A stretch of 64,000 bases of DNA from Phorcus lineatus. Taxonomy: Eukaryota; Mollusca; Gastropoda; Trochida; Trochidae. Below are positions 4,901 to 49,830 of this stretch, one piece after another (the first letter of the stretch is position 1; each line of letters begins with the position of its first letter). Where the stretch lies: positions 76,525,022-76,589,021 of the forward strand of contig OV121081.1 in the NCBI GenBank assembly GCA_921293015.1, read 5' to 3'. The position numbers and the translations under genes were made by a program. The notes under the pieces are model-generated. The model was not told the DNA's origin. It searched no databases and saw only the letters and a program-made list of their open reading frames with translations.

Positions 4901-7130
4901 TGTCCCAGTTTGATATTTGTATATGTAAATTATATTTTCTTTAAAGGTTAAAATATCCCATTTCTCAACATTATCTGTCGTCTTAGTAAAGGTGTCGCAT
5001 ATGAAGCAAAAATTGCATGCGGTCATGTTAGTATGAGGAAAGGAACTTGATTCGCATAGCAGTGCTTGAACTTGGTACATACATTTAAGAGATGTTCATA
5101 CTGATTAAAGTTGTCTTTCAGTAGATAACATTTTTGTGAGATCATTTTGTTTCCTTAAGAAATGTGCAAAAGCACCTCACTTATGAACAATTCGTTTCTG
5201 AAATGCTACAATATCATTTATGTTTGATAAAGTTATATTTTATTTTATTATATTTATATGTTAACTCTGTGGTCTTTGGTTGTTCATTAGCGAAGTGTTG
5301 CAAATACTATTTACTGGATGTAATAAATTCTTTATGTTAAACATCCCTTCATAAAAATTGACGATGGAGGGATAGTCGGGTTGAGTATGTATTGCATAGA
5401 AGATAACTTGACGGAATATATTTTTATTGTGAATGCATATGCAATACGTGTTATCTCCAAAACCGTCAATGTATGTGACGCCGATAGTAATCCCGAAAAG
5501 TGCCTCCACTAAATACAAAATCAAAGCGATGTACTAAAATTTTCATTTGATTATTTGTTTAAATGAAAAATAAAGTTTGTTTTTTCAAAAGTTTTATTCA
5601 GCCTGACTTCTATTCATGAAATCTTGATATAATGTTTTTTAAAGTACGTTTCCATTCACCTAGAGGCACACCTCTGTGGTATTTCGTTTGACTTATAATA
5701 TAGAAACCTTTTCTATTTTCAATTGAACTAAAAATCATAGATGCATGATATCCTTCTCTTTCTAACCGTGTAAAGTAAATCACAATTAATTTGTAGATTG
5801 TTTTAACAATCTGTATATTGTGAGTATAACATCTGAAGATAGATTGCAAGGAATACTAAGTTATTATTCAACCACCTTACACGATCGTTGCAAAAAGATT
5901 TAAATTTCAATGTTTGCTACAGAAACGATATTTTGTTTACGGAATTTATTAACTTTTGATATTTATTTTGTAGAGATTTATTGTGTTCATCATTGAGCTA
6001 TTTCCCTATAAGCAATTGAGGTACGTAATTTAAAAGGAATTCTCTGCGTTCTTCAATATTTTTACACTTTACAAGGTATAGCCATATCCAAGTTCCTTTT
6101 AAAATGGTGATTTAGAGTTCATATCGAAAACTTTTGATCATTTCTATATCTTTCAATTTCTCGACGTTAAACGGCACTATCACATTACAGTGATAATGAC
6201 TAGATAACCCGATCTATTCCCTGGCGAGTGTTTAACATACTTCCACACATTTACATGATTGTACCTAGTCATCAAGCTTCACAGCAATTATTGCCAAGTT
6301 CCTAACGATGTATCAACCTGACAGTACTGCAATTTATTGAGTGAATAATCGCCAAATTTTATTGAGATTAATTTCTTTAGTCAGCACCAAGCCAGATCAG
6401 GTTAACAATTATTTCAGGAACTGTCAAGTCGATCAGATGTGTCGGATATCTTATGAATAATGTCCAATTTTGTAATGCTTTAATTGCGATTGTTTTCGCT
6501 TTCATCGGGTATAGCAGTCAAAATACTATGTGATATGGATGCCTTTAAGAAACTCAATTTCATCTAGTAGATTAAGTCAATGTTACATACATGTACATAA
6601 ACTGTGTTTCACTTTCTTACTGCGAACACTTGGAATATCAATTTTAACAACTAATGCTCCGCATCAATGCTAATGAAACTGACGGGCAGCAGACTAAAAA
6701 AGAGAATGAAAACTGGTGCACATTATGCACCAAAAAAGGAAAAGCTCTTCATCCAATGAAACGAAAATTTAAGTAATATGAGGCCAGGAAATGCGGATGC
6801 TCGAAACAGGCTTGGTTTTGTTAGTGTAATAGGATTAAGACTTTGATATTATTGACCACTAAATGAATGTTTGTGTGTGAAATATTGAAACAACTATATA
6901 GACTCAAACTAAGAACATGTAAGGATTTCTTCGAGCATGATGAGAGTGATGGCGACGTGACAATGAATTGGTAAATGACCCTTTCTCAAGCCTTTTATGA
7001 CCCAAAGTCGCGTTGATTACAGTTATGTGTGTTTCAGACTGTTAGTTTTTAACTAAATACATATTTCTATAAATGATGTAACTAAATCAACACTAAAGTA
7101 GATTGATATTATAAGGTAGTAGGTGGTTGT
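1927..7130. other. Non-coding A+T-rich stretch
   Basis: No coding frame, RNA gene or transposon protein is recognisable. Open frames here are below 100 codons, show no family signature, and are expected by chance at this base composition. The only internal structure I see is the 60-bp tandem duplication at 3169-3275. The stretch precedes the first recognisable block of the large tandem array. Confidence 0.6.
3169..3275 (+). repeat. Two-copy 60-bp tandem duplication
   Basis: The phrase CTGAATACTAAGTATGA recurs exactly 60 bases later and is followed in both copies by TCTGCTAATGAC, then by a similar A/C-rich segment and TATTTC. The second copy is incomplete at about 3229-3275. Non-coding. Confidence 0.75.
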
Positions 7131-7395
7131 AAAATGAAGATCATTACTTGTACGAATTGACAAGACCAGTTTCTTATAACATAGTTGTCGTTATACGAAA
7201 CAAACATCACAGAAACCGCCATTATAACATGTATACTGCACTTTCACATGCAGACATGTTAACTTATTATAATCGCATCCATTTGGTTTGCGAAAAAAAT
7301 TGTATCCTTTAGTTTGGGCACAAAAGTGTACATAGTTCTGTTATAAGGATGTGATTGTTAGTTTTTTATGGAATTGGATATATATATTTGTTTGT

Positions 7396-7492
7396 CTTCT
7401 TCTTCTTCTTCTTCACCATCATAAAAAACAACAACAATATAATCATCATCGTCAACAATATAATCAGCATCGTTGTCGTCGTCGTAGTCATC
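7396..7492 (+). repeat. Compound trinucleotide microsatellite
   Basis: A run of TTC triplets is followed by AAC/ATC/GTC-type triplets, with CATCATCGTC and GTTGTCGTCGTCGTAGTC near the end. It produces an artificial low-complexity frame of Phe, Ile, Asn and Val that should not be read as a gene. Confidence 0.8.
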
Positions 7493-8932
7493 ATTGGTTC
7501 AACCGTAACGCTTCTTGAGGTTGCAATGGTACATTACTTGAGAAAGGAGGCAATTTAAAGTTACATTTAAAAAATTAAAGATATAACTTAAATTGATAAT
7601 GCGTTTATGTACCTGGTTACCAGATGTCTTTATAATAGGTTTTAATACTTCAACTGCGAATTTTACTTTCGGAACAAACAAAAAATCTTAGCGGAACACA
7701 CAGTTTCACGCTTTGAAGTTAAATGAGATATGTCGAAAACAAAACCCAACTAAGATCTTGCTGATCAAATGATAGACTTGCCATTCTTTACGACTTCACA
7801 GTTACTGATAACTTTAAAAATGAGGAGGTGACACCAATGATTTGCATTTTGTCGCTTCGATTGACATCTATCATGCACTAATTCAGAAAGGAGGGTTAAG
7901 TTTTTCAAATATTTAAAATCAATAAAGATTTCGGGCAAAAGGTTCTAATTAACGAACTTAAGGACAAAGTTGTTAAAACATGCAAGACCTATTCATTGAA
8001 AAATATCAAAAAGTTTCGCAAAGCATTTTGCAAGGTATGATATTGCGCATCTGGGCTATGAACGCGCAAGTTTAATGGGAAAAGCATCATGATCGTATAT
8101 CATGTTCTCACTTATCCCAGTTGGATACTGACTATATGTCCTCTTTGGTGCACCATCCTGATGACGTGAACATAAGTGTTCCGTCGTCAAATGAAGCCTT
8201 TGAAAATCAATACATCGTTCAAAGTATGTGTTAATGAACGAAGCTGATGTAGTAAGATATGCTATAAATAGTAAAGTAAAGTTGCGAAAAAGTTATCTTA
8301 ACAATTTAACAACCGTTTCCTGAAGTTGTTTGGGTATGGTGTTAAGAGTCTACATAAGTGACATTTACAAATTATAGCAATGGGAACTACTAGACAACTG
8401 ACGCATTAACATTTTAGATAAACAGAAGAATCGTCTATATATGTGAATATGAACCAAGCATGACATTTGCAAAAAGTCACATATGTTTTTCAAATAATTT
8501 AGCAACCGAAACTTTTGTGAAAACTCTAGCAGAAGTCATTTGGTCCTGGCGCCATCAAGGCTTCGACATCATCAAGTACATCAGGAAAAGTTGAAACCAT
8601 CATCATGTTATGAAATCAACAATTGACAATGTTGCAAAATTATGACCATGCTGCACAACTAGTCTAATAACAGTGATTGAATGAAAAGTGTACAGGTTTT
8701 ATTTACAAGTATCTATAAATAAATCAATGGTGAATAAAATATGATACTACAATGATCTGAGGGCCTTGTGATATTAAATATAAAAGTAGATACAAAGTAT
8801 TGTGGTTATTTGCCTAACTATACCAACTACGAGAGGTGGTTATCAAAACTTTTATTAATATCATCTTCACATTATGTCGTCATTGTCCAATCAGCCTTAC
8901 AAGCTGTGGTTTAACATTACATACCGTTGATA

Positions 8933-8942
8933 GATGTGATAT
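8933..8942 (+). repeat. Target site duplication, left copy (GATGTGATAT)
   Basis: The ten bases GATGTGATAT stand immediately left of the inverted-repeat element at 8943-9381 and recur immediately right of it at 9382-9391. Paralogous array positions near 15281 (TAGATGTGATATCATTA) and 29180 (AAATGTCATATCGTTA) have the site once, as expected for an unoccupied target. Confidence 0.8.
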
Positions 8943-9381
8943 CAGTCTGATTAAAATCGACCGTGTTCCGAGGAATAGAAGTTTCAAAATATTGACTCTA
9001 CCGAGATTCGAACTCTATCTGTCTAGGTTATCCTCTCCAGAACGGTCTGACCGCAGCCTACTGTAGCGTACGTGCTGACACCAGTTTAGCGCAGACAAAA
9101 CCTGGTTATTACACAATCGTGTTTAAAATAAGGATAGCGATCAAGGTTAATGAATGGTAAATGGGAGTTACTTGCCCTTAGCTACTGATACCGAATGCTT
9201 TTGCAGCACGCATTGTGATTGGTTAGCTGAGTTTACACGTAAGAACGTGCGCTACAGTAGGCTGCGGTCAGACCGTTCTGGAGAGGATAACCTAGACAGA
9301 TAGAGTTCGAATCTCGGTAGAGTCAATATTTTGAAACTTTTATTCCTGATCCTCGGAACACGGTCGATTTTAATCAGACTG
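8943..9381. mobile_element. 439-bp MULE-like MITE with ~130-bp terminal inverted repeats
   Basis: The element starts CAGTCTGATTAAAATCGACC and ends with its exact complement. The arms (about 8943-9073 and 9245-9381) match over about 130 bp apart from a 6-bp indel (ATCAGG) and a few substitutions, so it is fairly young. The central ~170 bp is non-coding. The 10-bp flanking duplication and long inverted repeats fit Mutator-like (MULE) non-autonomous elements, which are known for 9-11-bp duplications. No transposase is present, so the superfamily is inferred from structure only. The arms also contain GAGTTCGAATCTCGG, which resembles a tRNA B box. Confidence 0.8.
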
Positions 9382-9391
9382 GATGTGATAT
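9382..9391 (+). repeat. Target site duplication, right copy (GATGTGATAT)
   Basis: Exact second copy of the ten bases at 8933-8942, directly abutting the right end of the MULE-like MITE. Confidence 0.8.
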
Positions 9392-12241
9392 TAGTCTTTA
9401 GACAATATTTTATGTGACTAACAAAAACCCCAATCAGGTGGCTGCCGATGTTATCTATTTTAGTGAGACAGTTCTACCATTCGGCTTTTTTCGTTCTGTT
9501 GTTTCACATTTTACCTCACACAATTGAACAGTAGCGAAGGCTTAATTTTTATTGCATTGATTATCAATAAAACGATGCGTTACATAGTCTGTCTGTTATG
9601 ATACGACCAATGAAGTGGAAATTGTAAAAGAAATTGCATTCTTAATTTCCATGGGAGATAAACAAATTCGGCTGTGTAGTCAATGAAACACGTTTGAATA
9701 CACTTTGACTAAAATATATAAGCTCTGTGTAAATATACAAATTGATATATGATAATATATATAAATATCAGATATATTTATCAGTCGTCCATGCGTGATA
9801 CGTTAGAAATATCCATTAGTCCCGTTATCATATGATTATAAACTTGAAGTAATTGATCATCTTGCGTGATGTGATATTCAGTTTATATTTCAAGAAACAG
9901 TCGTTTGTGTCATTCGAATATGTCATATTGCAATAGTGTCACAGGCATTGATGAAAACACTTCACAAGATAACATTATTAATTTTTATTGAATTATGAAT
10001 TATATGTTTTGGTGATCTGTTGCTTCATATAAAAAAACGAAAACATGATGGTGTATAAAATGTGGTCAAATCAAAGACACTATTTAATGAAAAGGAACAT
10101 TTTCCAGAACTATGATATTGATGTTTTAAATACTTTTTAGTTATGTTTTCTCGTGATTTCGGATGCATTCTGATAATCATGCGACTATGGGTTTAATGTA
10201 TAAATACATCATAAACATCACAATCACCATTATCATATAACAAGTAGAAATATTGGTGATTTGTTTGAAATATTTCGGAAACGATTTCCTACTTTGGAAA
10301 TACTGCATTCTAAATCGAATTTTAAACTAAATAAACTTGAAGCTTGAAAAGATCTGAATGTTGCTTGGCAAGTTAACTTTGTAATTAAATGTTAGTTTTT
10401 GTAATTAAACTATTTTAATGCAAAGTGCAGATGCTTCTTTGAAGAAAATGTCCACGTTTGCAAAAGTTACACTTTGATTATATCAGCTTGGGTAATTACT
10501 ATTAACATTAAGATAGAGAACCACGGGTATCAACGGTTAACAGATAACTGGGTACAAACTATATCACCTCGACATGATGGAAGTTTAAAACTATTTATCG
10601 ACCTAAGGGGGTCGTGTCATATGCGACCGCTTGTGACCTTGAACTGCAACAAATACCCGTCTGTCTGTCAGTATCCCCCCTCATGAAAACAATGGGGTTT
10701 TTTTAATAAGATAATTGTGGGAGACTCTGAGAATAGAAAAAGGACGCTTCCTTATAATATATCATAAGGTTGAAAGACGATATAACATATATGACGAGTA
10801 TTGACTTTGGTGAAATATTCGAAGAATTGTATCGTATGATAAATAGGACACGTTTTCTATTTTCATTCTTTTATAACAAATGCAAACCAATCATAGAAAA
10901 CACAAACTTTTGCCCTGTATAGTATTATCTTTTATGCCAGTAGCACGTAAACGTTGATCATGCTGAAGACGTCTCATTGCATAATGATGGTAACACTCTA
11001 ACGCAACCATGCGCTAAACAGTAAATCTTATGCAAGAACCGATAGGAAAGTAAACATTGATGGGATAAACCAAGAAGCGGCAGTTTTAATCAACCCTTCC
11101 TTGAAGTGTCAAATTTGACAATGAACCACTCTCATGTGCATGGCACTATTGCGTGTCACATGTACAGCTCAGAGAGAAGTTCTTTATTCGTGAAGATGCT
11201 CTCAAGGCATGTCAAATCTCCATGTCTATTATCATATCATAACCTGCATAGGTATATGCATTTAGATATCCCCCACTTTTAAAAAGTATATATCTAGATT
11301 CAAGGCTGAATTGCTAATAATAATTATTATTATTATATTACTTATTTTTGTCTCGCCTGTTACGTCATAAAGAGATGGCGTACAGAAATAATTATACAAA
11401 AATGTACAACGTAGTGCAGCAATATTAGATTTTATGTTAACGAAATTGATAACAATATGGATTCAATCTGATGGCTGAATCCTTAATAACAAACAGATAA
11501 CATACAGACAAACGTACATTGCAATTCTGATAGCATCGTCTGCATTGAGCGACCTGCAATAGTCTTGATAACCTGAGAAGCAATTAATTCTTAAATCTGA
11601 TAATGTGTTGGAAATAGTGTTTCAAGTGGAACATTTCCAAATATAAACCAATGGTAGTTAAAAGAATATATCATCTGGCAAGTGTTAATGCACAATCTAA
11701 GAGAGATATTGATGACCCTAAGGGAAAACTCGTAACATATATGGACTCTAGACATTGAGCCTTTAAAAAATAATTCATCTTCTGTAAAAAAAAATGGGTT
11801 GAATTTTGTGACGCATGTAAATCACCTCTAGAGAAATTCTGTTTCTTTCAATTAGTAATTGTGAGCTTTTTTCCTGTTGAAATTAACTTCCCTGTATGCT
11901 TCGCCTACTTCATATAGAGAAATAGAGATTCTCACTATAGGCAATTTCTTTGTAAAAACGAGAGAACTGCAAATCTGTACTTATTTTAAGATGACTTGTG
12001 AACTAATAAACTAAAACCTTTGGAGATACCTTAATAACACAAATATGTAGATTATCTTTGTTCATTATGAAAATAATAACACATATATAAGCTTCTGAAT
12101 CCTGTCAGATACTACACACGTTACCCTTTCTGATCATTGGTTGGTACTCTTAAATGTCTGGCAGTCACAATTTAAGAGGGAAACGTGAGGGGGAAATACC
12201 CAGATAAGGAACGTCTGATATTTGAAACACTTGGCTATCAA

Positions 12242-12242
<1 letters not shown>

Positions 12243-12309
<67 letters not shown>
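12243..12309. repeat. (TA)n microsatellite, about 33 repeats
   Basis: An uninterrupted TA run lies inside array block S, just left of the composite inverted repeat. Tracts of this length commonly vary in length between individuals and assemblies. Confidence 0.95.
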
Positions 12310-12312
<3 letters not shown>

Positions 12313-13147
12313 AACAAATGAAATACTTCAGACGACACTTGCTGTAGATATCATTTAATGATGACTGGATGCGTCGCATTTTGACTTGTTTACAAGTCTT
12401 TTCAACAGCGTGGAGCTTTCACAACATGGCAAATAAATATATAGGTACATAGCTAAACGATGTAACAATGTGTAATAGACTTAGATTGATTAGCAATTTA
12501 CATGTGGTTAGCGTGAGTAGTGCACAATGCACTATTTATGAAGAATTAAGATTTGAGTCATTATAGAGGTATCTTCCTGGTCGGTCCCAGTCCGTGAATT
12601 GATCTATTGTTTCAATTGCACAATTGACATTTCTTGTGTACATGTAATTTCTAGGAGTATATGATTTTATGCTTTTTGAAGAGTGTCTTTTTATGAAGTT
12701 GAATTTACTCCAAAAGCTTTTTGTAAGGTTGTTTTGCGATGACGTGGATGAAGTATCATTACTCCTCTCTTCCAATGTTGATACTATTGAGTCGTCCTTC
12801 ACGCTGGATAAACTTGTGTTAGATCGGTGAAGGTCCTCGGATGATGGTAAGTCATCTGACTGGCTCAATACCTCTACAAGAGAAGACTCATCCGATTGTA
12901 GGTAATGATGTTGAATTTGTTCTATATCAATTGATGGGGGCCTTGTTCTGTTGTGTTTCTTCCAATCCTTGTGGACCTTGTTGTTTGGAAGCTTTTTTTG
13001 TCCTTTGTGTGATGTTTTCTTCTTTTTCTGCACATTCGATTTCACAACACGGCAAATATATAGATACATAGCTAAACGATGTAACAATGTGTATCATTAA
13101 AATGATATCTACAGCAAGTGTCGTCTAAAGTATTTCATTTGTTCAAA
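12310..13147. repeat. Composite unit: 50-bp inverted ends plus 55-bp internal direct repeats around an ORF
   Basis: The left end (12310-12361) begins TTTGAACAAATGAAATACTT and is matched in reverse complement by 13093-13147. Inside, a direct repeat of about 55 bp containing ACATAGCTAAACGATGTAAC occurs at 12418-12475 and 13040-13092. The minus-strand ORF of 183 codons fills the space between the direct repeats. The inverted ends suggest a transposon-like or inverted-duplication origin. The direct repeats suggest target duplication or duplication of flanking DNA around the ORF block. I do not recognise the family and see no transposase signature. Confidence 0.6.
12536..13087 (-). CDS. Unrecognised 183-codon basic/serine-rich ORF
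   Basis: I do not recognise this protein. The open frame begins at a TTG; the first ATG is six codons later (13067-13069). The N-terminal part lies in the 55-bp direct repeat. After it comes a strongly basic stretch (KKKKTSHKGQKKLPNN), an acidic/serine-rich centre (DESSLVEVLSQSDD, SSLSSVKDDS) and a C-terminal part with aromatic residues (FWSKFNFIKRH, TDWDRPGRYLYND). No membrane segment or signal peptide is visible, and the composition suggests a mostly disordered protein or cytoplasmic tail. By a rough estimate at about 67% A+T, a frame this long is not expected by chance in 64 kb. It could be a terminal exon, because a possible acceptor (AATGTGCAG) precedes the basic stretch. It could also be cargo of the surrounding repeat. 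Confidence 0.4.
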   Translation of the reverse strand: MLHRLAMYLYICRVVKSNVQKKKKTSHKGQKKLPNNKVHKDWKKHNRTRPPSIDIEQIQHHYLQSDESSLVEVLSQSDDLPSSEDLHRSNTSLSSVKDDSIVSTLEERSNDTSSTSSQNNLTKSFWSKFNFIKRHSSKSIKSYTPRNYMYTRNVNCAIETIDQFTDWDRPGRYLYNDSNLNSS

Positions 13148-13285
13148 TATACATTTACTTCACGTGCGACCTTTCACCTTTTTACCTATATATATATATA
13201 TATAGATGTAAAAGTTAAATGTTCGTGGTTTATGTATTAAATATTCTTTGAAAATAACAAGCTGAAGATTGGTATTCATATAAAT

Positions 13286-13325
13286 TCATTACCAACCGGT
13301 TTCACAACATAGTGATCATCAGGGT
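13286..13325 (-). ncRNA. Hammerhead-ribozyme-like core in the PLE terminal repeat
   Basis: On the minus strand CTGATGA (13316-13322) is followed twelve bases later by GAAA (13300-13303) and then CCGGTTGGTA, which can form a short stem closed by a GGTT loop. CUGAUGA and GAAA are the two conserved core boxes of hammerhead ribozymes, and PLE terminal repeats are known to carry such motifs. The pairing I can draw for stems I and II is weak, so this may be a decayed or inactive form. Confidence 0.3.
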
Positions 13326-13445
13326 AACTTATACATTGTGTTGCTAATGGTATAGCGTTAACAATGGCAAGGGACGGAATTCATGACGTCATATGCCTAC
13401 CACTAAAAATATATATAGTAAATGCGACGTCAACATGATTTAATA

Positions 13446-13760
13446 TTAGTTACAGTTCAATTTAGGGGTATATCCATAAATAAAGAATCGTTTTTTTATT
13501 TTCCTCAGCTCTTCATTATCTGTGCGCATTTTGTAAATAGGACAGATTGTGAACTGGGGATTGCAATTCTTTGCGCATTCATCTATATGTGTGCTAAGGG
13601 GTATACATCTATAGTTTGGTGTTTTAATCTGTTGCATTGTTTATGTACTCGGACTCTCGCCCTTAATGTATCCCCCGTTTGACCAATATACTCTTCGCAA
13701 CAACCAGCGCATGTTATTACATTTCTGGATTTCTGGAGGCGCAAGACATATTTTCCATTA
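13446..13760 (-). pseudogene. GIY-YIG endonuclease fragment of a Penelope-like element
   Basis: Read on the minus strand, one frame gives a cysteine-bearing segment ending ITCAGCCEEYIGQTGDTLRA, followed by RVRVHKQ. It holds the YIG part of the GIY-YIG fold and the conserved TLR-R-x-H helix. A second frame continues as LSTHIDECAKNCNP and then KRFFIYGYTPKLN before a stop. Both pieces match the usual order of PLE endonuclease motifs. The change of frame near 13630 shows at least one indel, so this is a pseudogene. In autonomous elements the domain nicks the target for target-primed reverse transcription. Confidence 0.7.
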
Positions 13761-14164
13761 TTTTGAATTTTTAATTATTCCTAAAGGTGAATGAATTAAC
13801 CTCTAAAATGTGTGTACATGTGCCGCAATTCGGCCTATTACATTTTGTGATACCTCCACCTAATTCAGGTTTTTTTTATCTTTAAAGCACCCTTTAGATA
13901 ACAGTTGTTTCAGGTTTTTGCTATGCCGTTTACTGTTTATCACTTTAGTATACACATTATACCATTAGCAACACAATGTATAAGCTACCCTGAACTTATA
14001 TGAAGACCAATCTTCAGTTTGTTATTTTTAAACAATATATATCGGCCAATCAATTTATTTCACAGAAGAAAAATATACCTATAAGGGTTTTTGTAAAAAG
14101 TTTTTGAAACGGATTCTGGTGTTCATTTACCAAATACATAATACTTTTCTATAGATAAATTCCG

Positions 14165-17100
14165 TCTACCTTAGCTGATCATTTACTGATATTTATATTG
14201 ATACATCATGATAACAATTTCTGAGTGTGTCAACTATAACTTGCATATTTATATCAAAATAATGATGAAATGAAAAGTTGTGTAGATGACTTCATGACGA
14301 CTTTAACAAGACCAGTTATATACCTAGCTACTGCCGAAAGATATATATATAAAATCAAATATCTATGGAAACGTATTTTGCTCTTATCATTGATAACAAT
14401 AGAAACAATTGACATGTCATACAACACAATATCTGTTATTAGATACATCACCTGATCTTAATAATGTAGATGTAATCACATGGCATTATGCAGAACATTT
14501 TGTTCGAATTTATTAGAGACTGGTGAAAGGAAATACTTTATCAACGGAGACAAAGGTGATAATTAAAGAATATTGAAAGTGTTGTCAATGGCATTAACAA
14601 TAGAACATCCGTGAATATTTCTTTAAGGTCTGTTAAACAGTAGATAGGAAAAAACATTTCAAAACATTTTTATGCAGACGTTTTTTAAAAATCTTATTAA
14701 CCAAAAAGGATTAACCTTTTATGATCATGTGACAACCCTACACTTGTTTCAACAGTAACTTACATACCTCTTACATTCAGTGAGACTATATACCATATCA
14801 TCTTCACACGTTAACAACAGAACCATCAACATCATCACCACATCATAACACAAAAGTTGCAGGTATAGTTCTAATATCTCCATGTCATGAAATGAATTTT
14901 CACATATCTTAAAGTTTTCAAAATATCCCCAAAAAATAAATCTAAGGCATTCAGGATTTTTTTGTATGCTTGCTGAGTATTATAATTGTCCATCTGTCAA
15001 AATGTCAAATCTAATTGGAAAATATTTTCGACAATATAAGTGTTCTGCACAATCCCGATGATGTGAACATAATTGTTCTGCCATCGAAATTAGAATAATA
15101 ATAGCAATAAAATCGTTGTGTCTTATGATATCAAATATATACATGATATACAAAATAGTGTGAGAGTATTTGCCTAAATATGCTTAGTAGGAGAGGTGGT
15201 TATCAAAATTTCATTTATATCATCTTCATTATATGTCGTTATATTGTCGTTATGTTTAACATTACATACCGTTGTTAGATGTGATATCATTAATATCTGG
15301 ACGATTTATTAATGTCAGCGCGATTAAAGCAAATTAAACAGCCTTTTGGCTGACTCGGTTATCTATTTTAGCGAGGCAATGCAACCATTAGGCTTATTTC
15401 ATTCTGTTGTTTCACATTTTACCATACACAATCGAACGGCAGAGGATGCTGGATTTTTATTGCATTGATTATCAATAAAAGGATGTGTTACATAGTTTCT
15501 CTATTATGATACGAGCTTTGATATGATATGGAAATTGAATGATGGAAATGCAATCAACATTTTCCTGGAAGACAAATTAGTCTGGTTGAATAATTACATT
15601 TTCCATTTCAAGATGAATTCATTTGCAAAGTCCTTGTCGAAGTTTTCCTCTATGATTGCATAGATATTTTCTAGGTAGGTAGTAAAGTAGGTAAGTAATT
15701 TCTATACACATTATGGTGAGATCGATGAGTATCAACCATGTCAGATAACTGGATGGGAACTACATCACCTTGACATGACGTTGACTATATATGACAAGAA
15801 ATATAAGATGTCAATACTTTGGTGAGGTTATACAGAAAGCTGCAACATTACATCCATTATATTCCAAGTATTAAAATACCGTATTTTTAATAGAATTGTA
15901 CAGTAATTAAACAGATAAACTTCAAATGGTATGAATGATGCTTGGCAAGATATTGTTTTTCCTTCGAAACGTTATCTGTTTTAATGGAACTATCTCAATG
16001 CAATAGGCAGATGCTTCTTTGAAGAAAATAGACAATGTTCTCAAAAGTTACACTTTGTGTATCTCGATTTCTGTGATTGCTACACACATTCAGGGAACAT
16101 CCATAAGCGTCAACCGATAAAAGATTACTGGATGACAAACTTTTTCACTTTAAAATGTCTATAGACTATATCGACATATGCAGTTACGAGATATCCAACC
16201 TCTTGTGACGTTACACATTTATTGCATTATTATAGTTTTGTAATTACTTTGAATGTATTTGCTTCGCCTAGACTTTAAGCACCCTCCCTCGGCGAAAACA
16301 AATATTCGTTTTCTTAAAGAATACTCACGCCTTTAGCTCTAGAAATATCATAGATGACTTCTGTATAAATGTTATTGGTTAGGAAGATGATATTTGAAAG
16401 GATAATATATTATACATTCCTAGACGGGTATGATTTGTAGTGACTTTTCTGACAATTTTGACAATGGTTGCTTGTTATAAACAGCATATGCATATCAAAA
16501 AGAAGATTTTCATGACAACTATACAGTTTCACAAACTTTAGCGGATGTAACGTCCTGAACGCCTACAAGCAAAAGGTTTTTAGTCTTTGAAGCGATGACG
16601 TTCTTTTATTGCCCAATTTGTTGCGGTGAGTTTAAATATTACCATTTATCCTATTTATGTTAATCAGGTAAACCAATTGTAATCAGTTTCATGAGAAGTA
16701 GGGTTGTTGTACGTAGGGAGTTATCCTGACCTATCTATATTTTGATTTGTTTTAAGTAAGTGTCGACCTTCAAATTGATCAAAGTATCTCTAACAAACTT
16801 CAACCAAAAGTTATTCCATAAAGTAATGAAACAAGGCTCTTTTTACAAAAGAAGACCTATCAGTTTCATTGCCTGTCAAAAAAGCAAACCGTAATGTTTT
16901 TTGCAAAGGATTTGTTGGCTAAGCTTATGTACAATCATAAGTAAATGTAAACTTGATCTTATTTCGTATCTCATTTTGAATCAATGCAATGTTGTGTGTA
17001 CCCTGTCAGTCAATTCCAAACTCAATCTGTAAGATTATCTTAAATACAAATTAGTACTTAATGTCTTTCTTACCGCACACAACCGACCATGCACATCAGC

Positions 17101-38642: not shown

Positions 38643-38647
38643 GTAGC
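38643..38647 (+). repeat. BEL target site duplication, left copy (GTAGC)
   Basis: GTAGC directly precedes the TG of the left LTR and recurs directly after the CA of the right LTR (46289-46293). The sister MITE has it once (GGTATCGTAGCGTTGC read on the minus strand near 23545). BEL/Pao elements typically make 4-6-bp duplications. Confidence 0.9.
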
Positions 38648-39122: not shown

Positions 39123-39124
39123 AT

Positions 39125-39140: not shown

Positions 39141-39249
39141 TTAGACTGAAATTTAGGTTTGTAGGAATAACATAGTCGTTGGAATATGAAGTCGTATTTC
39201 TTGTTAGGGTAAAATTCTGATCAAATCTTCAGCTTTAGCCTCTGACAAC

Positions 39250-40530: not shown

Positions 40531-40674
40531 TTCCAGCCGATTCTCGCAGGTTTCACCGCAATGCATAGCCACAAATAGTGTTGCTGGCTTTCTCCCTGCA
40601 ATAATACTAGCAGCCGCGATATAAGTGAAATAATCTTGAAAGCGGCGTTAAACACCAACTCACCTCAACTCACC
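40358..40674 (+). mobile_element. Full-length tRNA-headed SINE inserted in BEL gag
   Basis: A 317-bp insertion bounded by a 13-bp target duplication. The head has perfect RNA polymerase III promoter boxes: A box TAGCGCAGTGG (40367-40377) and B box GGTTCGAATCC (40411-40421). A G+C-rich body follows, and the 3' end reads GCGGCGTTAAACACC followed by CAACTCACCT repeats. I recall that 3' end from mollusc SINEs. With its duplication it adds 330 bases, a multiple of three, but it introduces in-frame stops at 40528-40530 and 40576-40578. A 5' fragment of the same family is at 23616-23707. Confidence 0.93.
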
Positions 40675-43600
40675 TTAGACGTTGCTGTTGCTAACCTTCA
40701 TGACTCTGATAGGGTTGAGGAACTAGGTAATGGACTTTTGTATCTAAAGCTTCAGAAAAAGATGACTGAATCAATGGTATTGCGGTATCAGCGTTGGGTG
40801 TACGAGTATCAAAGACAAGAGTCAGTTCTCACATTACGTGAGTGGGTTTTGTTGGAGGCAGATTTCCAAACTATTGCTTCAGAAACCTGTCATGGCTTTT
40901 CACAGAGATCGGTTAAATCTGATCAATTTAGGCAAAGTAGCAAGTCGGGTACTTATTTTGGTAGTGAGAAGCATCAGTTCCAACACAACAAGACAAAAGC
41001 TTTAAATTGCGACTTTTGTCATGACAAACATGCAATATGGAATTGCAAACAGTTCTTGGTTTTAAAACCAGAGGATCGCTGGGATGTAGCAAAAAAGCAC
41101 AGACTTTGTTTCAGATGTCTTGGGTCTTTTCATCGGGGTAAATCTTGTTGGTTCACAAGAGATTGTGGCATAAACGGTTGCAAAAGTAACCATAATAAAT
41201 TGTTGCATGTTGAAAAGCAGTCGTTTTCATCAGATAGGGATACTTCTTCACAAACACAAGAGGGTCATAGTCGGCCTGAAAGGTCACATGCGGCAAGCTT
41301 ACCTTCAGAGAGTCGAATAAAATCCTACCTTGTTGCCTTAAGAACAGTTCCTGTGGTGATAAAATCAGGCAAAAAACGACTCACAGTGAATGCACTTTTA
41401 GATGATGCTAGTACAAAGACCTACATTAATGCAGATGTAGCTGCAGAATTAGGCCTTCAGGGGGAAACACAAAAAGTATCTGTGAATGTGCTGAACAATC
41501 AGACTGAAACTTTTGACACAATGCCTGTTGAATTTGGTTTGGAAAGTATCAGTGGAACTGTTGACATCAACATTTCAGCTTTGACAACACAAAAGGTTAC
41601 AGGAGATCTTCAAGTAATAGATTGGTCAAAATGCAGACATCTATGGTCCCATTTGAAAGACATAATATTTCCAGAGATCAGTTCCCCTCCAACGATTGAT
41701 CTCCTGATAGGCATGGACTATTCTGGACTACATTTCTCACAAAAAGATGTTTGCGGACATGCAAATGATCCAATTGCAAGGTTAACTCCTTTGGGTTGGA
41801 CGTGTATAGGGCAAATAGCTGGTGCATGTGATGATAATCACACAAATTTTGCAAGTACTTTCTTCTGCAATAGCAATGTCGAAGAACTCAATACTCTCAT
41901 GCACAGATTCTGGGAAGCAGAAGAGTTCTCATCACCTACATTGCCAAATGTCAAAGGTGAGGATGGATTAGCTTTAGAATCTGCAAAAGAATCAATGGCA
42001 ATTGTTAATGACAGATATGAGATAGGCATTCCCTGGAAAACAGAATCCGAGTTACTGCCTTCCACTAATTGGGAGATGGCTTATCAAAGGCTCGAAAGCA
42101 CGGAAAAGAAACTATCAAAAGATAAAGTCATTGCTGAGGCATATTGTGCAGTCATAGATCAGTATCTAAACAAAGGATACATCAGACAGGTTCCTATAGA
42201 TGAAACGGATTTCAAGCGCAAGTGGTATCTGCCGCATTTTCCAGTCGTTAAATTAGACAGAACAACTACAAAGGTGAGGATAGTTTTTGATGGTTCAGCA
42301 AGATACAAAGGATTGTCTTTAAATGATGTCATACATCAAGGTCCTAAACTTCAGAGGGATTTGTTTGATGTCTTGCTGCGTTTTCGCAGAAACCCAGTTG
42401 CTCTTGTCTGTGACATAGCAGAAATGTATCTTCAAATAAGTATATCCCCACAGGACAGACCATACTTTAGGTTTCTTTGGAGGTCCATGAACAGAGACAA
42501 GCAACCAGAGGAGTATGAGTTTACTCGTGTAGTGTTTGGTATCAACTGTTCACCATTTCTTGCACAATTCATCTCTCAGGAAAATGCTAAACTCCACGCT
42601 GAAGAACTTCCAATAGCATCCGAGACAGTTGACAAGTCTACCTACATGGATGACAGTATGGATTCGGTTGAAAATGACGAGGAAGCTATAGAAATGTACA
42701 GACAACTTACTGAAATTTGGGGTAGAGCTGGCATGCATGCTAGGAAATGGATGTCGAATTCAGTAACTGTTCTTGAACAAATTCCTGTAAAAGACAGATT
42801 ATCAGAATTTGCATTAGACAGTGGATACTTACCTTCATTGAAGACTCTTGGAGTAATGTGGAAGGCAGAACAAGATGAGTTCACGTTCATGACAAACTTA
42901 CCTGAGCTTTCAACAAAATTGAGCAAAAGAACATTCCTCAGTCAAATAGCAAAACTGTTTGATCCCTTAGGTTTTCTATCGCCTTTCACAATCAGAGCAA
43001 AGATTTTGCTGCAAGAGATGTGGACTGCTGGGCTTGAATGGGATGCAGTTGTTCCTGATGATCTGAAACAAAAAGCAAACAAGTGGTTTAATGAAATTCA
43101 TGATGTGAAAAATGTCAAAGTGCCAAGATGTCTAAGAAGTGCAGATAAGGTTGTTACAAACGATCTTCACATCTTTGTTGATGCATCTGAGTCGGCTTAT
43201 GGAGCTGTTGCATATTGTGTGAATACTTACCAAAATGTTGACATGACGTCTGTGATTGTGGCAGCAAAAGGAAAGGTAGCACCTCTGAAAGCAGTGAGCA
43301 TTCCTCGTCTTGAGCTCATGGCTGCCATTGTTGGGTTGAGACTCGCCCTGTCAATCACAAAGACTTTAGCAATCAAAATTGAATCAGTCAGATTTTGGTC
43401 TGACAGTTTGAATGTACTGGGATGGATTAGAAACAACAGTCGCACATTCAAACCGTTTGTGTCAAATAGAGTAAGTGAAATTCAGTCTTCAACAAATCCA
43501 TCACAGTGGGTGTTTGTTCCAACAGAGTTAAATCCTGCAGATTTGCTTACAAGGGGTATTACAGCACTGAAACTGGTTTCAGATAGGCTATGGTGGTCAG

Positions 43601-45318
43601 GTCCAGAGTTTCTGGTTCTTGGTGAGTCTTTTTGGCCAAAACAATTGCATTCAAACGAACTTAAAGAATCTTCTCAGTTCGAAAAGAAATCGGTTAAAAA
43701 ACAAACAATGACCTCTTTCCTTTCATGTACATCTCAAAGTCCTTGGAAACTTGATCCAAAACGATTTTCAGATTGGAGACGATTTCTCAGAATCTATGCT
43801 TGGGTCCTCAGGTTTTTGATGAATTGTTCTCAAAAGAAACACCAGAGAGTCACTGGTGAATTGACTGTTGATGAACTACAAAGTACAGAGAGCAGAGTCA
43901 TTTCCTCTATGCAAAAGCAGGTGTTCGAAATTGAATATTCTTCTTTGCTCAAAGCACAGATGTTGCCATCAAAAAGCAAACTCGTTAGTTTAAAACCAAA
44001 ACTTGATCACGATGGTGTAATGCGTGTCGACGGACGTCTCGTGCAAGGTGAGCACATTTCTCATGAAGCGAAATTTCCAATAATTTTACCTCGAAAGAAC
44101 TGGATCACAAAGTTAATTGTAAAGCATTTTCATGAAAAGGCAAATCATGTTGCTGGAACAAATCAAACTCTTGCTGCAATTTCAACCAGGTTTTGGATAA
44201 TCTCAGGTCGTGAAGAGATCCGTGAATGGGAGAATCAATGCATGAAATGTAAAAGGTTGAAAGCTAAACCAGCACAACAGATCATGGCACCATTACCAAA
44301 ATTTAGACTTAACCCATCGTTAAGAGCATTCGCTCAAGCTGCAGTAGATTTTGCAGGTCCCTTCTTGACAACTCAAGGTAGAGGCAAATCAAAGCGCAAG
44401 AGATATCTTTGTCTATTCACATGTCTTTGTTCAAGAGCTGTCCACCTAGAACTTGCATTTGGTCTGGATACTGATTCATTTCTGAATGCCTTCTATAGGA
44501 TGACCAGTCGTAGAGGTCTACCAGAGGATATTGTGTGCGACAATGGCACAAATTTCGTAGGCGCTTCTAGGGAGTTAAAAAATTTAGTGTCTTACTTAGA
44601 TTCAGCTTCAGTGAAACGTTCTCTTGCCAACAAAGGAACAAAATGGCATTTCAATCCGCCAGGAGGTCCTCATTTTGGAGGAGTCTTCGAGACTATGATC
44701 AAGTCTGCAAAACGAGCCATATATGCTGTTCTTGGCAACAGTGATGTTAATGATGAAGAACTTCTAACAGCCTTTACTGGTGCTGAAAGTCTCCTTAATT
44801 CCCGTCCTATCACCTATCAGACTTCTCATCCACATGATGATGTGCCACTCACTCCAAATCACTTCTTGCACGGCCAAGTGGGTGGTCAATTTGCTCCTGA
44901 GTCTGTTGATAGAACTTCCTTCAATCCAAGAAAACGTTGGAGAAGAGTTCAGGAGCTTGTGCGACACTTTTGGGCCAGATGGATGAAGGAATGGATTCCT
45001 AGTCTTAACAGAAGAACAAAATGGCTAACGTTAAAGAGAGACTTCAAAGTTGGTGATGTGGTCTTGGTCATTTCATCCAGCACTCCAAGAGGTCACTGGC
45101 CACTGGGCAGAGTACTCGAAGTTTATCCAGGACATGATGGTCATGTTCGGGTCGTTGACGTCCAGACTGGTAATGCTATACTTACCCGACCAGTCACAAA
45201 GCTTTGCCATCTAGAGCTTACAGAGGAGGAAGAGAGGAAAGAAGAATCGGACAGAAGGACAGAAGAAGGACAGGAGGACAGAAGAGGATTCGGACAGGAG
45301 GACAGAAGAGGATACTGA
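40636..45318 (+). CDS. pol: BEL Pol region: zinc knuckles, protease, RT, RNase H, integrase
   Basis: The frame is open from a TTG in the SINE tail, and the first 13 codons are SINE sequence, so this is not a natural start. Numbering from 40636: zinc knuckles near 125 (CDFCHDKHAIWNC) and 158 (CFRCLGSFHRGKSC); retropepsin with LLDDAST at about 254-260; reverse transcriptase about 530-770 with YMDD at 670-673; RNase H with D849, E893 (RLELMAA) and D923 (WSDSLN); integrase with an H-H-C-C zinc region near 1170-1215 and catalytic D1238 (VDFAG), D1302 (CDNGTNF) and E1352 (FETM); then the DUF5641-type C-terminal domain near 1430-1540. All catalytic residues are present. It is expressed in family members as one Gag-Pol polyprotein; here the SINE stops separate it from gag. 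Confidence 0.93.
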   Translation: MKAALNTNSPQLTLDVAVANLHDSDRVEELGNGLLYLKLQKKMTESMVLRYQRWVYEYQRQESVLTLREWVLLEADFQTIASETCHGFSQRSVKSDQFRQSSKSGTYFGSEKHQFQHNKTKALNCDFCHDKHAIWNCKQFLVLKPEDRWDVAKKHRLCFRCLGSFHRGKSCWFTRDCGINGCKSNHNKLLHVEKQSFSSDRDTSSQTQEGHSRPERSHAASLPSESRIKSYLVALRTVPVVIKSGKKRLTVNALLDDASTKTYINADVAAELGLQGETQKVSVNVLNNQTETFDTMPVEFGLESISGTVDINISALTTQKVTGDLQVIDWSKCRHLWSHLKDIIFPEISSPPTIDLLIGMDYSGLHFSQKDVCGHANDPIARLTPLGWTCIGQIAGACDDNHTNFASTFFCNSNVEELNTLMHRFWEAEEFSSPTLPNVKGEDGLALESAKESMAIVNDRYEIGIPWKTESELLPSTNWEMAYQRLESTEKKLSKDKVIAEAYCAVIDQYLNKGYIRQVPIDETDFKRKWYLPHFPVVKLDRTTTKVRIVFDGSARYKGLSLNDVIHQGPKLQRDLFDVLLRFRRNPVALVCDIAEMYLQISISPQDRPYFRFLWRSMNRDKQPEEYEFTRVVFGINCSPFLAQFISQENAKLHAEELPIASETVDKSTYMDDSMDSVENDEEAIEMYRQLTEIWGRAGMHARKWMSNSVTVLEQIPVKDRLSEFALDSGYLPSLKTLGVMWKAEQDEFTFMTNLPELSTKLSKRTFLSQIAKLFDPLGFLSPFTIRAKILLQEMWTAGLEWDAVVPDDLKQKANKWFNEIHDVKNVKVPRCLRSADKVVTNDLHIFVDASESAYGAVAYCVNTYQNVDMTSVIVAAKGKVAPLKAVSIPRLELMAAIVGLRLALSITKTLAIKIESVRFWSDSLNVLGWIRNNSRTFKPFVSNRVSEIQSSTNPSQWVFVPTELNPADLLTRGITALKLVSDRLWWSGPEFLVLGESFWPKQLHSNELKESSQFEKKSVKKQTMTSFLSCTSQSPWKLDPKRFSDWRRFLRIYAWVLRFLMNCSQKKHQRVTGELTVDELQSTESRVISSMQKQVFEIEYSSLLKAQMLPSKSKLVSLKPKLDHDGVMRVDGRLVQGEHISHEAKFPIILPRKNWITKLIVKHFHEKANHVAGTNQTLAAISTRFWIISGREEIREWENQCMKCKRLKAKPAQQIMAPLPKFRLNPSLRAFAQAAVDFAGPFLTTQGRGKSKRKRYLCLFTCLCSRAVHLELAFGLDTDSFLNAFYRMTSRRGLPEDIVCDNGTNFVGASRELKNLVSYLDSASVKRSLANKGTKWHFNPPGGPHFGGVFETMIKSAKRAIYAVLGNSDVNDEELLTAFTGAESLLNSRPITYQTSHPHDDVPLTPNHFLHGQVGGQFAPESVDRTSFNPRKRWRRVQELVRHFWARWMKEWIPSLNRRTKWLTLKRDFKVGDVVLVISSSTPRGHWPLGRVLEVYPGHDGHVRVVDVQTGNAILTRPVTKLCHLELTEEEERKEESDRRTEEGQEDRRGFGQEDRRGY
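40675..40687 (+). repeat. SINE target site duplication, right copy (TTAGACGTTGCTG)
   Basis: Exact copy of 40345-40357. The BEL reading frame resumes from this point. Confidence 0.95.
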
Positions 45319-45400
45319 CAGGAGGACAAGAGAGGATTCCGACAGGAGAATAGAAGAGGAAACGGACAGGACTGAAGAGGAATCTTGAGATAGAAGAGGA
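45236..45400 (+). repeat. Purine-rich ~24-bp tandem repeats at the end of pol
   Basis: Units containing GGACAGGAGGACAGAAGAGG recur with a period near 24 bp across the stop codon. They encode the odd basic/acidic C-terminus (EEGQEDRRGFGQEDRRGY) and continue into the 3' untranslated region. They are probably expanded within this family and are unlikely to matter for integrase activity. Confidence 0.75.
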
Positions 45401-45799
45401 AGAAGACAAGACAAGAGAAAATGTTACAGAGAAGACAGGATTTAATTCAATGGAGTGATTCAGAGGAGGTGATAAAATAAGTGAATTGTGTTTTATTTCA
45501 GATTGGAATTCAGTGATGTGAGTAGATGATGTGATGATAAAATGTGTTTATTATGTGAAATTTCAGTATGAAAATGGTGTGATCTTAAAGTTCAAAAATG
45601 TTTCATGGAAATTGTGTTAAAATATGAATGAAAATATGTTCAAAATGGAATATTCTTGGATTTCTTGGATCTGAAGATATGGTGGTGACGTATTCGAACT
45701 GGACATTTTTCTTTTTCAGGTCATTTTCTTTGATATTGGACAATTTATTGTTTTGAATGTTTTCTTTCAGTGAATTCATTTTATTGATAGGGTTCTATC

Positions 45800-45813
45800 A
45801 AGGAGGGGGGAAA
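45800..45813 (+). other. Polypurine tract of the BEL element
   Basis: AAGGAGGGGGGAAA directly precedes the right LTR. A tract of this kind primes plus-strand DNA synthesis in LTR retrotransposons. Confidence 0.9.
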
Positions 45814-46288
45814 TGGTAAGCAGATGACCTAATTTTCGTTTGTTTCGTATTGTACATATTTACAAAATGTTCCTATCCAAAAATGTATGTTTTTCATTGT
45901 TTCCGGACATGAACAGTTCACCCGAACGCACGCTGCTTCGCGGATAGACGCCCGAACGCATGCTGCTTCGCGGAAACATTTGAAATCAGCCATCTTGGAT
46001 TGTACCGTGACATTCGTCAATCAGCTTTTACATTCTGTCGAGACAGGATGTCTTTTCGTTTTTTCGTAAGAAGTTAGTCGTGAATTAGAGGGTTATTTGA
46101 ATTTGTTAGTCAAGATATTGTTATACATGGTCATTAGTGTGAATAGAGACATAATGTTAGTGAATTAGAAAGAATATTAGTAAATTAGAAAAGAACAATA
46201 ACAAGTAAGTTAAACCAACAGTTGTAAATAGCATTGTAAATAAAACTGTAATATACGTTAGACACGCCTTTGTTATTCCTGCCGAACA
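45814..46288 (+). repeat. 3' LTR of the BEL element
   Basis: 475 bp, read as identical to 38648-39122, including the CpG-rich 24-bp pair (45921-45944 and 45951-45974) and AATAAA at 46239-46244. Short open frames in it are shadows present equally in both LTRs. Confidence 0.95.
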
Positions 46289-46293
46289 GTAGC
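46289..46293 (+). repeat. BEL target site duplication, right copy (GTAGC)
   Basis: Matches 38643-38647. The MITE sequence continues directly after it (GTTGCGAAAAAG), as in the sister copy at 23041-23615. Confidence 0.9.
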
Positions 46294-49200
46294 GTTGCGA
46301 AAAAGAAACGTTAATAATTGAAATTTCAATACAGATATGCAGATCCATTCTTCGTTAAGGTAAATGTCTATCGTACCCCCACAATTACCCATAACAGTTT
46401 TGGCAGGCCATTGAAATGACCAGGGGTAAAAATTCCGAAAGCACTAATTTTTAATACTCTCCTTAAAATCCTGTTTAAGTTATCAACTTTATCAAAATTA
46501 GTCACGTTTGTTCCTTAGGACAAAGTCACTGTGATTGGGTTGGTTTTAATCTCAGAGAGTCCAAATGGAACATTTCATTTGACGTTTAACAAAATCAAAA
46601 TATCGAAAATATGACCCATTCTGTCTATATCAATATGCCAAAATTTGCACGAGAGACCAGACGATCCCAAAATGAATGGCAAGAATGGCAATTTCACACA
46701 TGGACAGTGATCCATTGTCCGTTTAGTTGAAGTTATTCTATTGAAGTTGAAACGAAACCCAATTTACATAATATTTGCACTACGATTCAGTGGTAAGTGA
46801 ACAAACTTTCAGTATGCAGCTGTATTTGTCGTTGAATGTACCATATAAAGAACAAATACTCGCCATTCGTTGGCATACATACTAGTCAGCCTTCACAGTA
46901 TTTGGAATACCATTAGATAGTTGATGAACGAAGTACAATAGACTTGGTATTTCAAGTATGTAGTAAGGTGTTGCTTTACACCTAATATTGTTCAATAGAA
47001 CAATATGATGTTACGAATAACCTTTCTAAATGGAGTATAGTGACGGCAAGAGTGACATTGTGGGATGGTAATCAGGCTTTATTATGGCAGTCAGTTGTTA
47101 CATTGTGACAGTTAACCTTTCGCTAAATAAGTCGACGGATGCATTGAAGTAAGCAAAACAAACTCGTAAGTACCTTTTGCTGTACTAGCAACTTAATTGT
47201 GTTTGTGTGATCAGGATGAAACGTACTTCGCACTTGATGCAATGTAGACATAACTATTATCATAAATGCTAGTCATTTCTAAAGGATGACGAAACAAGTT
47301 CAGAAAACAAACCAGAATTGGGACTAAAACAATCATTGACTGACAATCGGTCTGATACGGCGTCTTAATTATTTTCATCGCCTTCATATGTATACATTAT
47401 GTATATCATATATGCTTATGTAATTAAAGAAAACAAATCAGAAATTGTATCTTTATGATAACAAGGGATTGTTGTATCAAAGTATCAAACACAAAACGGA
47501 AGGAAAACAATGAACTACAGTCACGATTGGTTGGTTGTTTAGGACTGCCTGAAGACACAGGGCATCACGTTAACAAGAGCATGATGAAACAACGTATTGA
47601 TCTCATTACATTTTTAGAAACTCAAGCCAATTCGGCTCATGATTAGGTAATCTATTTAGTATGCTCTATTCCTATGACAAGTGACCAACCTCAACCTCAA
47701 CCTCATACATTTTTTCACGGCTCAATTAAACTGATTTTTTCTTAGACCTAAATGTAACCGACGGGTGTTGATGTTACAAAGGCAATGAGACTGATATCTA
47801 ATGGATGCATGCTCGTAAGGTTGATATACAATTGATCTATACAAATGTCTCTCTGCATTAATTCATAAATTTCTTAAATTGTAGATTGATAAAGTATGCA
47901 TAAACTTTGTTGACAAACAAACACAAATTGTCATCATCGCAGTCTTCATAATACACAGCATATGATTACTTTGTCTTATCAATTCATTTGTCAAAGGAAA
48001 TACATTTCCAATCTAAATTTGTAAAATTATTCGCAAAGACAAATGGGCATTTCATCATGTTTTTCTTACCATAAAGTATTTAAAATGCACATCAGCATTA
48101 TCTCTGAACACCATTTTGGAACCAATAAGACTCATTACAAAGCTCTTGAAGGAGACCATGAGACGAAATGCCCTTTACTGCTTCCCGTGACACTCTCTAG
48201 CACTGTCATGTATATCTAAAGGTTGTGACAGAGTCGACCAATTACACAACCTGTCTTCCTGTGTTACAGGTGTCGGTACGAGACAGCAAGAGGTAAGAAA
48301 TAGTCTATGTCGAAATTTGAAGACACTATTACATGTACAATGACATGATTTTAATGTCACCAGCCACAGACGAGTTGCTAATGAACTAATTGGACCAGAC
48401 AAACAGAGGATGTTCATCAAGTGTTTTCGTTTGAATGAGTGAATGGGTGATGGTCCAAGGTTAAAATGTCTAATCTACTTATGTTAGATTATGTGGAAGT
48501 AGGCTAAGAATATTCAGTATTATATCCTAAGAGAGCAACCATGTTTTTTTAAACAATTTTTCATATTTATGATGATTATGATCTTTGAGGATATTCATTA
48601 TAATTTTCTAATTCAAAAACCAATCTCTAGAAACCGATACTAATAAAATGTTAACTAAGTATTCTCTGCCGTTCATATCTCCACTACAAGATATATTTTA
48701 CATTGTCAGAAACTCATTAAAAAGCGTTAATGTAATGATGTTTAAACCCTGCTTCTAAATAGCGTCATAAGCCAACAGTTGACATACAGACAAACGTAAA
48801 TTGAAATGCTGATGACATGTCTGTGTTCAGCACCTAGCAAAATATTTCACAAACTGTCAAGCAATTCTTAGATTTTGGCATTTGTTTCCTGATTGCCTTT
48901 ATAGAATATTTCCAGGTATTTTTCAAACTCGTAATGTACTTGGACTTATGTGACTCTGATCCGGAAAAAAAAGTTTTATATTCTATTTATCAGTTTTTTA
49001 AGAAGAAACGCATTTTTGTGATAAAGGCAAATAACCTTCATAGAAATTCCGTTCCTTTCAGTTTTCCTGTTGGAATTGACTTTGGTTTATGTGTCAAGCA
49101 CGTGGTCACATACACACGTAGAGAGCAAATAATCTAGGAATTTTCACGAAAAGCGATTTATTTCCTCGAAACTTAGCAACAACTAGAACACTGCACATTT

Positions 49201-49830
49201 CCACACTTTATTTCCAAATCATGTGTTCAAACTGTTTTTGTTTTTTTTTTTGCTTACCGGCTGATTATGATATATTTCATATATTGTAAGCCAAAAGCTA
49301 TTGAGATACCTTAATAACACACATGTGTAGGTTATGCTTGTTCCTTATGATAATATAAATACATTAATAAGCTTCTGAAATAAACTATAAACATTTCCCT
49401 TTCTTAACATTGGTTGGACCTCTTAATTGTCTGGCAGTCACGTGAAAGGAATTACCCAGAAATAGCAGGTTCAATATGGAAACACTTATACCTTTGGTCA
49501 TTAAGTAAAGACAACTTCAGGTCGAATCTTCAAAAATTTATATTCATGTCTGAATCCATGTTCTATCCCCAAGAATCGGACACTAACTTTATTATACAGA
49601 GGAGATAGGGGCCCCGATCGGTTTTAGAATAGATATTCTGGGGTTCATATGCCAAATCATAATAGTTTTAAATTCCTATAAATAAATTCCTTCCACCTTA
49701 GCTGATATCTGACTAATACTTTCATCAAGATATCATGGGATCGTCCACTCTAATTTGCATGAATATATCAGAACAATTAAAAAATAATAAGATAATTTTC
49801 ACTTTACGACGACTTTGACGAGGCGAACAC

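Follow-up and report, generated by a model that had tools for sequence, protein, structure and literature searches.

A diverged tandem array of five approximately 7-kb units without detected coding signal in the gastropod Phorcus lineatus

Layout of the array and its insertions

The DNA analysed here (the window) is a 64,000-nucleotide stretch of Phorcus lineatus contig OV121081.1, in which five main head-to-tail units (A–E) span positions 7413–49810, accompanied by partial extra copies and by one upstream relic block at 697–774. Self-comparison of the array yielded 73 forward and 5 inverted match pairs, against 0 in each of five dinucleotide shuffles, confirming the five-copy, approximately 7-kb tandem array that a first-pass annotation of the window had proposed. 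The units, described by blocks X, N, P, R, U, T, S and postS, and the features found in or beside them are as follows.

697–774, plus strand: N relic located upstream of unit A (E 1.1e-07; E 9.2e-08 with the N core)
7413–14298, plus strand: unit A, with X, N, P, T, S and postS, and a dispersed repeat between S and postS
12243–14047, no strand assigned: insertion in unit A, the first part of which is the dispersed repeat
14846–19618, plus strand: unit B, with X remnants, N, a partial P plus P, U, T, S and postS
19662–20059, plus strand: B2, a partial extra copy with S plus postS
20382–28258, plus strand: unit C, with X, P, R, U and T twice, S and postS, and a segment (22653–22959) inverted relative to E
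29038–33817, plus strand: unit D, with N, R, S and postS, and an internal repeat (29963–30208 / 30523–30776)
33884–49810, plus strand: unit E, with X, N, P, R, U, T, S and postS, split by a BEL-type element and another insertion
35059–36054, plus strand: 332-codon open reading frame (ORF) inside the other insertion of unit E, labelled LINE in the first-pass annotation, with no Pfam match
38648–46288, plus strand: BEL-type LTR element in unit E, with LTRs at 38648–39122 and 45814–46288 and target duplication GTAGC

Across 264 kb, profiles of the eight blocks matched 39 times at E ≤ 0.01, always within 7413–49810 and on the plus strand (39/39), most of these matches being the same rows from which the profiles were built, with block limits set by this analysis; in the 200 kb of flanks the profiles had no match at that threshold. 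For the eight blocks profiled here, the common orientation and recurring order described earlier stand, with exceptions to strict order: U and T are doubled in unit C (24974/26182 and 25886/27137), unit B carries a second S–postS (19662–20059) and a second partial P (15693–15790), and the inverted segment of C covers 311 columns aligned to 37568–37864 in E. The copies differ in block content: full X is found in A, C and E only, B keeping 51 bp of it at 15036–15086, and R is aligned in C, D and E only. Trinucleotide simple repeats lie at the X-end starts of A, C and E, the three units that retain the X end. All five S sites listed before were recovered, with CATTGGTTGG at 12135, 27849, 33471 and 49408 and, near 19205 in copy B, the diverged version CAGTGGTAGG, and a sixth, partial S that had escaped the list was found at 19662–19838. 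The N relic at 697–774 is possibly the remnant of an older unit.

The BEL-type element and the insertion around ORF 35059–36054 account for the length of the last interval of the array, which by our own arithmetic shrinks to the previously estimated 7.2 kb or so once both are subtracted. The two LTRs of the BEL-type element are identical (475/475 bases), its ORF at 39208–40527 contains DUF1759 (Pfam), and the element is very young. The repeat in unit A had 69 matches besides its self-match, on 15 contigs and all in query bases 226–601 (window 12225–12600). Among 136 flank ORFs of at least 66 codons, taken from the seven stretches nearest the array, Pfam assigned eight families with one member each; the sole strong one is a class-A GPCR, 38 kb past the array, whose best PDB relatives are the neurotensin and ghrelin receptors, and the weak ones include SAP30 (E 1.1e-4).

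Copy number, divergence and coding signal

For blocks S, U and T the search covered the full 958-Mb genome, with all first-look candidates scored. The search, which took in three of the eight blocks, returned 15 matches (6, 4 and 5, self-matches included), 15/15 of them in the array and, at its sensitivity, none outside it. S, U and T thus occupy a single locus and, for these three blocks, show the low copy number and non-transposon character of a tandem segmental duplication rather than the many unlinked copies of a dispersed repeat; for X, N, R, P and postS the search covered the 200 kb of flanks. Neither outcome that would have spoken against the array in the first-pass annotation, random block order or blocks dispersed through the genome, was seen for S, U and T, with X, N, R and P checked in the flanks. 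That separate dispersed repeats had clustered here by chance is exceedingly unlikely: insertions abound in the region and the genome-wide search spans S, U and T and not X, N, R and P, but S, U and T match nowhere else, the eight profiles are silent in the flanks and every profile match has one orientation.

Across the ten copy pairs, K80 distances were 0.25–0.33, with approximately 75% identity without gaps, and the tree was star-like, with terminal branches of 0.17–0.22 and internal branches of 0.024 and 0.035. With a gamma shape of 4.55, rates were fairly uniform from site to site, though not entirely, as matches clustered at p < 0.05 in 10 of 39 long pairwise alignments.

Codon periodicity in the copy alignments reached p < 0.05 in 2 of 75 tests and p < 0.01 in none, gap lengths were divisible by three in 124 of 757 cases, no ORF in the block consensuses was longer than chance (T came closest, p 0.066), and all-against-all comparison of stop-to-stop ORFs gave nothing above chance. 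No reading-frame trace was thus found in copies or consensus by tests that a noncoding gene part or very short exons would escape. The earlier observation that no ORF survives across copies holds for the shared blocks, and the long ORFs of the region sit in unaligned insertions.

Conserved cores and RNA-like signals

A few segments of 40–110 bp are more conserved than the remainder of the array, and X, N, R, S and P contain clustered invariant columns. The most conserved stretches are the following.

8092–8189, plus strand: top stretch of X, with other copies starting at 21105 and 34646
9546–9605, plus strand: top stretch of N, which in copies A, B and D contains the palindrome ATTGATTATCAAT
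12015–12065 and 12121–12165, plus strand: conserved stretches of S
24367–24479 (unit C coordinates), plus strand: top stretch of R, directly before the donor-like GGTAAGTACTT at 24487

In X, 29 of 30 columns are invariant in three copies, which 0 of 1,000 shuffles equalled; the same best-30-column test was not significant for R (p 0.591), S (0.37), U (0.473) or T (0.817), and misalignment near gaps inflates such clustering tests. The best 40-column windows had pairwise identities of 0.82–0.89, compared with a mean of 0.595. R ends in donor-like sites at 24487, 32411 and 47165; of the four copies of U, two retain an acceptor-like site, which the other two have lost.

Rfam gave no match at gathering score across the window; at a loose threshold, positions 7100–38600 gave one sub-threshold match, to ceN53 (25.8 bits against 50), within the unit E insertion, and the tRNA search found none. 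Among 124 alignment windows scanned for structure, 5 had z < −2 and 4 had z < −3, the latter being P on the plus strand (−6.9) and U (−4.73), R (−4.5) and T (−3.06) on the minus strand; consensus energies were small for P, R and T (−1.9, −3.8 and −5.6 kcal/mol). The U minus-strand hairpin (−23.9 kcal/mol) was rejected as a candidate, as both partners had changed in 0 of its 42 pairs and its single-copy z values were −2.36, −0.44 and −1.30; the X core fold, with 1 of 21 such pairs, was likewise rejected.

Origin and meaning of the array

The array shows one orientation, a recurring block order with partial units, star-like distances and no coding signal. Most probably, it arose when noncoding DNA was duplicated locally and in tandem long ago, and it then decayed nearly neutrally without visible homogenisation and was hit by transposable elements; adjacent, same-orientation, kilobase-scale copies are what such a tandem segmental duplication consists of. 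We suggest that a segment of approximately 7 kb gave rise, over a brief period, to five or more copies arranged head to tail; unequal exchange is the probable mechanism, and the simple repeats at the X end may have had a role in it. The copies would since have drifted nearly neutrally, without homogenisation and with transposable elements landing in them, and would have no present function. The partial and internal duplications count in favour of this explanation, being traces expected of unequal exchange. Against fully neutral decay count the clustered matches and invariant columns, the lone N core at 697–774 and the four of 124 structure windows with z < −3.

An alternative view is that regulatory modules, or else an lncRNA or intron unit, are repeated here, and that selection still holds the 40–110-bp cores in X, N, R and S. 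The near-invariant X core, the identity of the best 40-column windows, the persisting N core and the splice-like sites of R and U would all fit. This view is unlikely, however, given the inflation of the clustering tests beside gaps, the lack of significance of the best-30-column test in R, S, U and T, the loss of the U acceptor in two copies, the lack of an Rfam match at gathering score and the want of support for structure from paired changes in U and X. Equally doubtful is its fuller form, in which five or more independently diverging copies of regulatory or noncoding RNA modules would retain selected cores in X (8092–8189), N (9546–9605), R (24367–24479) and S (12015–12165), the palindromic N core outliving its own unit at 697–774. 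An array of dead gene copies, the decayed gene cluster suggested before, would have units of this size, exon-like islands of similarity and splice-like signals as at R and U, but the missing codon periodicity, gaps not in threes, a consensus without long ORFs and the lack of paralogues of S, U and T outside the array make it very improbable. The first-pass interpretation is thus partly supported: its low-copy macrosatellite fits the layout, with a large tandem unit of approximately 7 kb, but not the divergence, as the low unit divergence that concerted evolution would leave is absent.

Known systems resemble the array in part. In the purple sea urchin, the Sp185/333 locus has microsatellite-bounded tandem segmental duplications whose 4.5-kb segments each carry a gene and are highly similar (PMC3091723). 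Macrosatellites have units of a few kilobases at most, D4Z4 measuring 3.3 kb and DXZ4 3 kb (12–100 copies), with satellite families homogenised through concerted evolution (PMC8122249). As described there, the array shares with Sp185/333 kilobase tandem units with simple repeats at their edges (here the X end of A, C and E), but its units measure approximately 7 kb, show no coding signal in the tests applied and are approximately 75% identical without gaps; with D4Z4 and DXZ4, whose units are smaller and homogenised, it shares large head-to-tail units at one place, but has five main units with deep star-like divergence. Tandem pseudogene clusters likewise consist of diverged, transposon-ridden tandem units, whereas here copies and consensus hold no coding relic. 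Among the literature matches listed, none is a direct precedent, and we do not assert that such arrays are absent from the literature.

Under the favoured reading, a tandem duplication of noncoding DNA, the locus would be a clear case of such a duplication escaping homogenisation while staying traceable at approximately 75% gap-free identity, with the nested insertions serving as time marks. Should the conserved cores prove functional, this one genome would offer five natural replicates in which a noncoding element could be dissected.

Extent and probable single-locus nature of the array

Self-comparison of the window, which covers positions 76525022–76589021 of its contig, connected five segments by forward matches. 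Under permissive settings it gave 73 pairs in forward and 5 in inverted orientation, whereas each of five dinucleotide shuffles gave zero, establishing as real the five-copy tandem array that the first-pass annotation had claimed. One unit runs from X through postS. Profiles of the eight blocks repeated across units A–E (X, N, P, R, U, T, S and postS, as delimited for this analysis) were scanned against 264 kb, with the BEL-type LTR element that splits unit E masked, and yielded 39 matches at E ≤ 0.01, every one on the plus strand and inside 7413–49810; the majority are the rows from which the profiles were made, the new ones being partial P copies, partial S copies and the simple-repeat start of X. 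A second, more sensitive scan (plus strand only, 16 segments) revealed an X remnant at 15036–15086 (E 5.8e-08) and an N relic upstream at 697–774 (E 1.1e-07; 9.2e-08 with the N core alone). Excluded from the count were, from this sensitive scan, an X match within a simple repeat (30720–30766, E 1.1e-04), an R match (13676–13844, E 0.012) and postS matches at 60154–60193 (E 0.08) and 57753–57852 (E 0.094). The aligned fraction was 0.50 in unit A, 0.56 in B, 0.67 in C, 0.68 in D and 0.66 in E.

In a search of the genome (957,807,699 bases, 74 contigs) that scored every first-look candidate for these queries, all matches, including self, lay within the array: six for block S (630 bases), four for U (458 bases) and five for T (309 bases); the search skips very common words, and distant copies may escape. 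Of the eight blocks, the array is thus single-locus for S, U and T.

The X ends of A, C and E sit in simple trinucleotide repeats, consistent with, but no proof of, duplication by unequal exchange there. Further small events are indicated by an inverted segment in unit C (self-comparison) and by the following features; unit C also carries U and T twice each (profile scan).

19662–20059, plus strand: partial unit S–postS (profile scan)
15693–15790, plus strand: partial P (profile scan)
29963–30208 and 30523–30776: internal repeat of unit D

Insertions and flanking features

Several gaps between blocks are insertions.

12243–14047: insertion in unit A, its first part a dispersed repeat
17708–18013, minus strand: ORF in an insertion, HTH_29 match below threshold (17.6 versus 28.1 bits), presumably mariner-like
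23039–23550 and 46289–46824: repeat present in both, in opposite orientation, 84.2% (self-comparison)
39208–40527: first of two long ORFs in the BEL-type element, containing DUF1759
40579–45315: second long ORF in the BEL-type element

A query reaching into the unit A insertion had at least 70 genome matches (40 of 1,218 candidates scored). Among the matches listed, all non-self ones fell in query bases 226–601 (window 12225–12600), on 15 contigs, with 83–96% identity among the long ones; nearby copies also occur in the 100-kb left flank. Block S, unlike this adjoining insertion, is not a dispersed repeat. The inserted ORF 35059–36054 had no Pfam match, its LINE label coming from the first-pass annotation; an ORF at 25227–25460 is, at a guess, LINE-end-like.

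The BEL-type element (38648–46288) has LTRs identical at 475/475 bases and is a very recent insertion, far later than the duplication burst; its target duplication is 5 bases, GTAGC. It contains tandem repeats at 45239–45371 (24-base unit, 5.8 copies) and 39270–39417 (72-base unit, 2 copies). Unit A contains a probable foldback element, an inverted repeat (8943–9079 versus 9239–9381, ~140 bases, 93% identity) that has relatives at about 115 kb in window coordinates. Downstream of the array lie 3.4 copies of a 34-base tandem repeat (52513–52623) and, 38 kb past it, a class-A GPCR gene with a single open frame of 400 codons (88126–89325 in window coordinates), whose closest solved relatives are the neurotensin and ghrelin receptors. 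This gene and the BEL-type element suggest an animal genome.

Coding potential, constraint and RNA structure

The array has no coding signal, as the first-pass annotation had held: codon-phase differences reached p<0.05 in 2 of 75 alignments and p<0.01 in none, 124 of 757 gap lengths were multiples of three, and the longest open stretches in the eight block consensuses did not exceed those of shuffles (p 0.066 for T, up to 0.786).

Signs of constraint were mixed. Clustered matches reached p<0.05 in 10 of 39 long pairwise alignments, which share sequences and are non-independent. On multi-copy blocks, the variance test yielded p values of 0.000 (X, N, R), 0.006 (S), 0.017 (P), 0.088 (U), 0.259 (T) and 0.203 (postS). 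In the best-30-column test the values were 0.000 (X), 0.02 (P), 0.036 (postS) and 0.038 (N), with R, S, U and T not significant. These clustering tests, on one genome, are inflated by misalignment beside gaps. The best 40-column windows were:

8092–8189 and 8398–8462: block X
9546–9605: block N
24367–24479: block R
12015–12065 and 12121–12165: block S

A gamma shape of 4.55 on the tree of units favours rather even site rates. RNA structure reached z < −3 in 4 of 124 windows, and the strongest of these four by energy lacked two-sided paired changes. Block U carries an imperfect inverted repeat predicted to form a long minus-strand hairpin (26222–26365, 17166–17307, 48167–48304), which is most stable in unit C's second copy of U (−39.8 kcal/mol, z −2.36) and less so in the other copies; two-sided paired changes were not found in it. 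Donor-like strings occur at the R end in C, D and E, and an acceptor-like site in U is retained in two of four copies.

Origin of the array

It is improbable that each unit would be a regulatory or noncoding-RNA module whose core is under constraint. Dispersed repeats clustered by chance are less likely still, a reading weakened by the lack of profile matches at E ≤ 0.01 in the flanks. A macrosatellite is alike in layout, but homogenisation is typical there and the array does not show it. Ungapped identity was 0.749 over 22,625 columns, and real divergence is higher because local alignment retains the better parts; K80 between units ranged from 0.251 (B–D) to 0.326 (A–D). Long terminal branches (0.17–0.22) and short internal ones (B+D 0.035, support 93; C+E 0.024, support 85) suggest that the copies arose in a burst, followed by long independence with no visible homogenisation. 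The array most probably represents a tandem segmental duplication of noncoding DNA that is old and has since decayed, single-locus for S, U and T.
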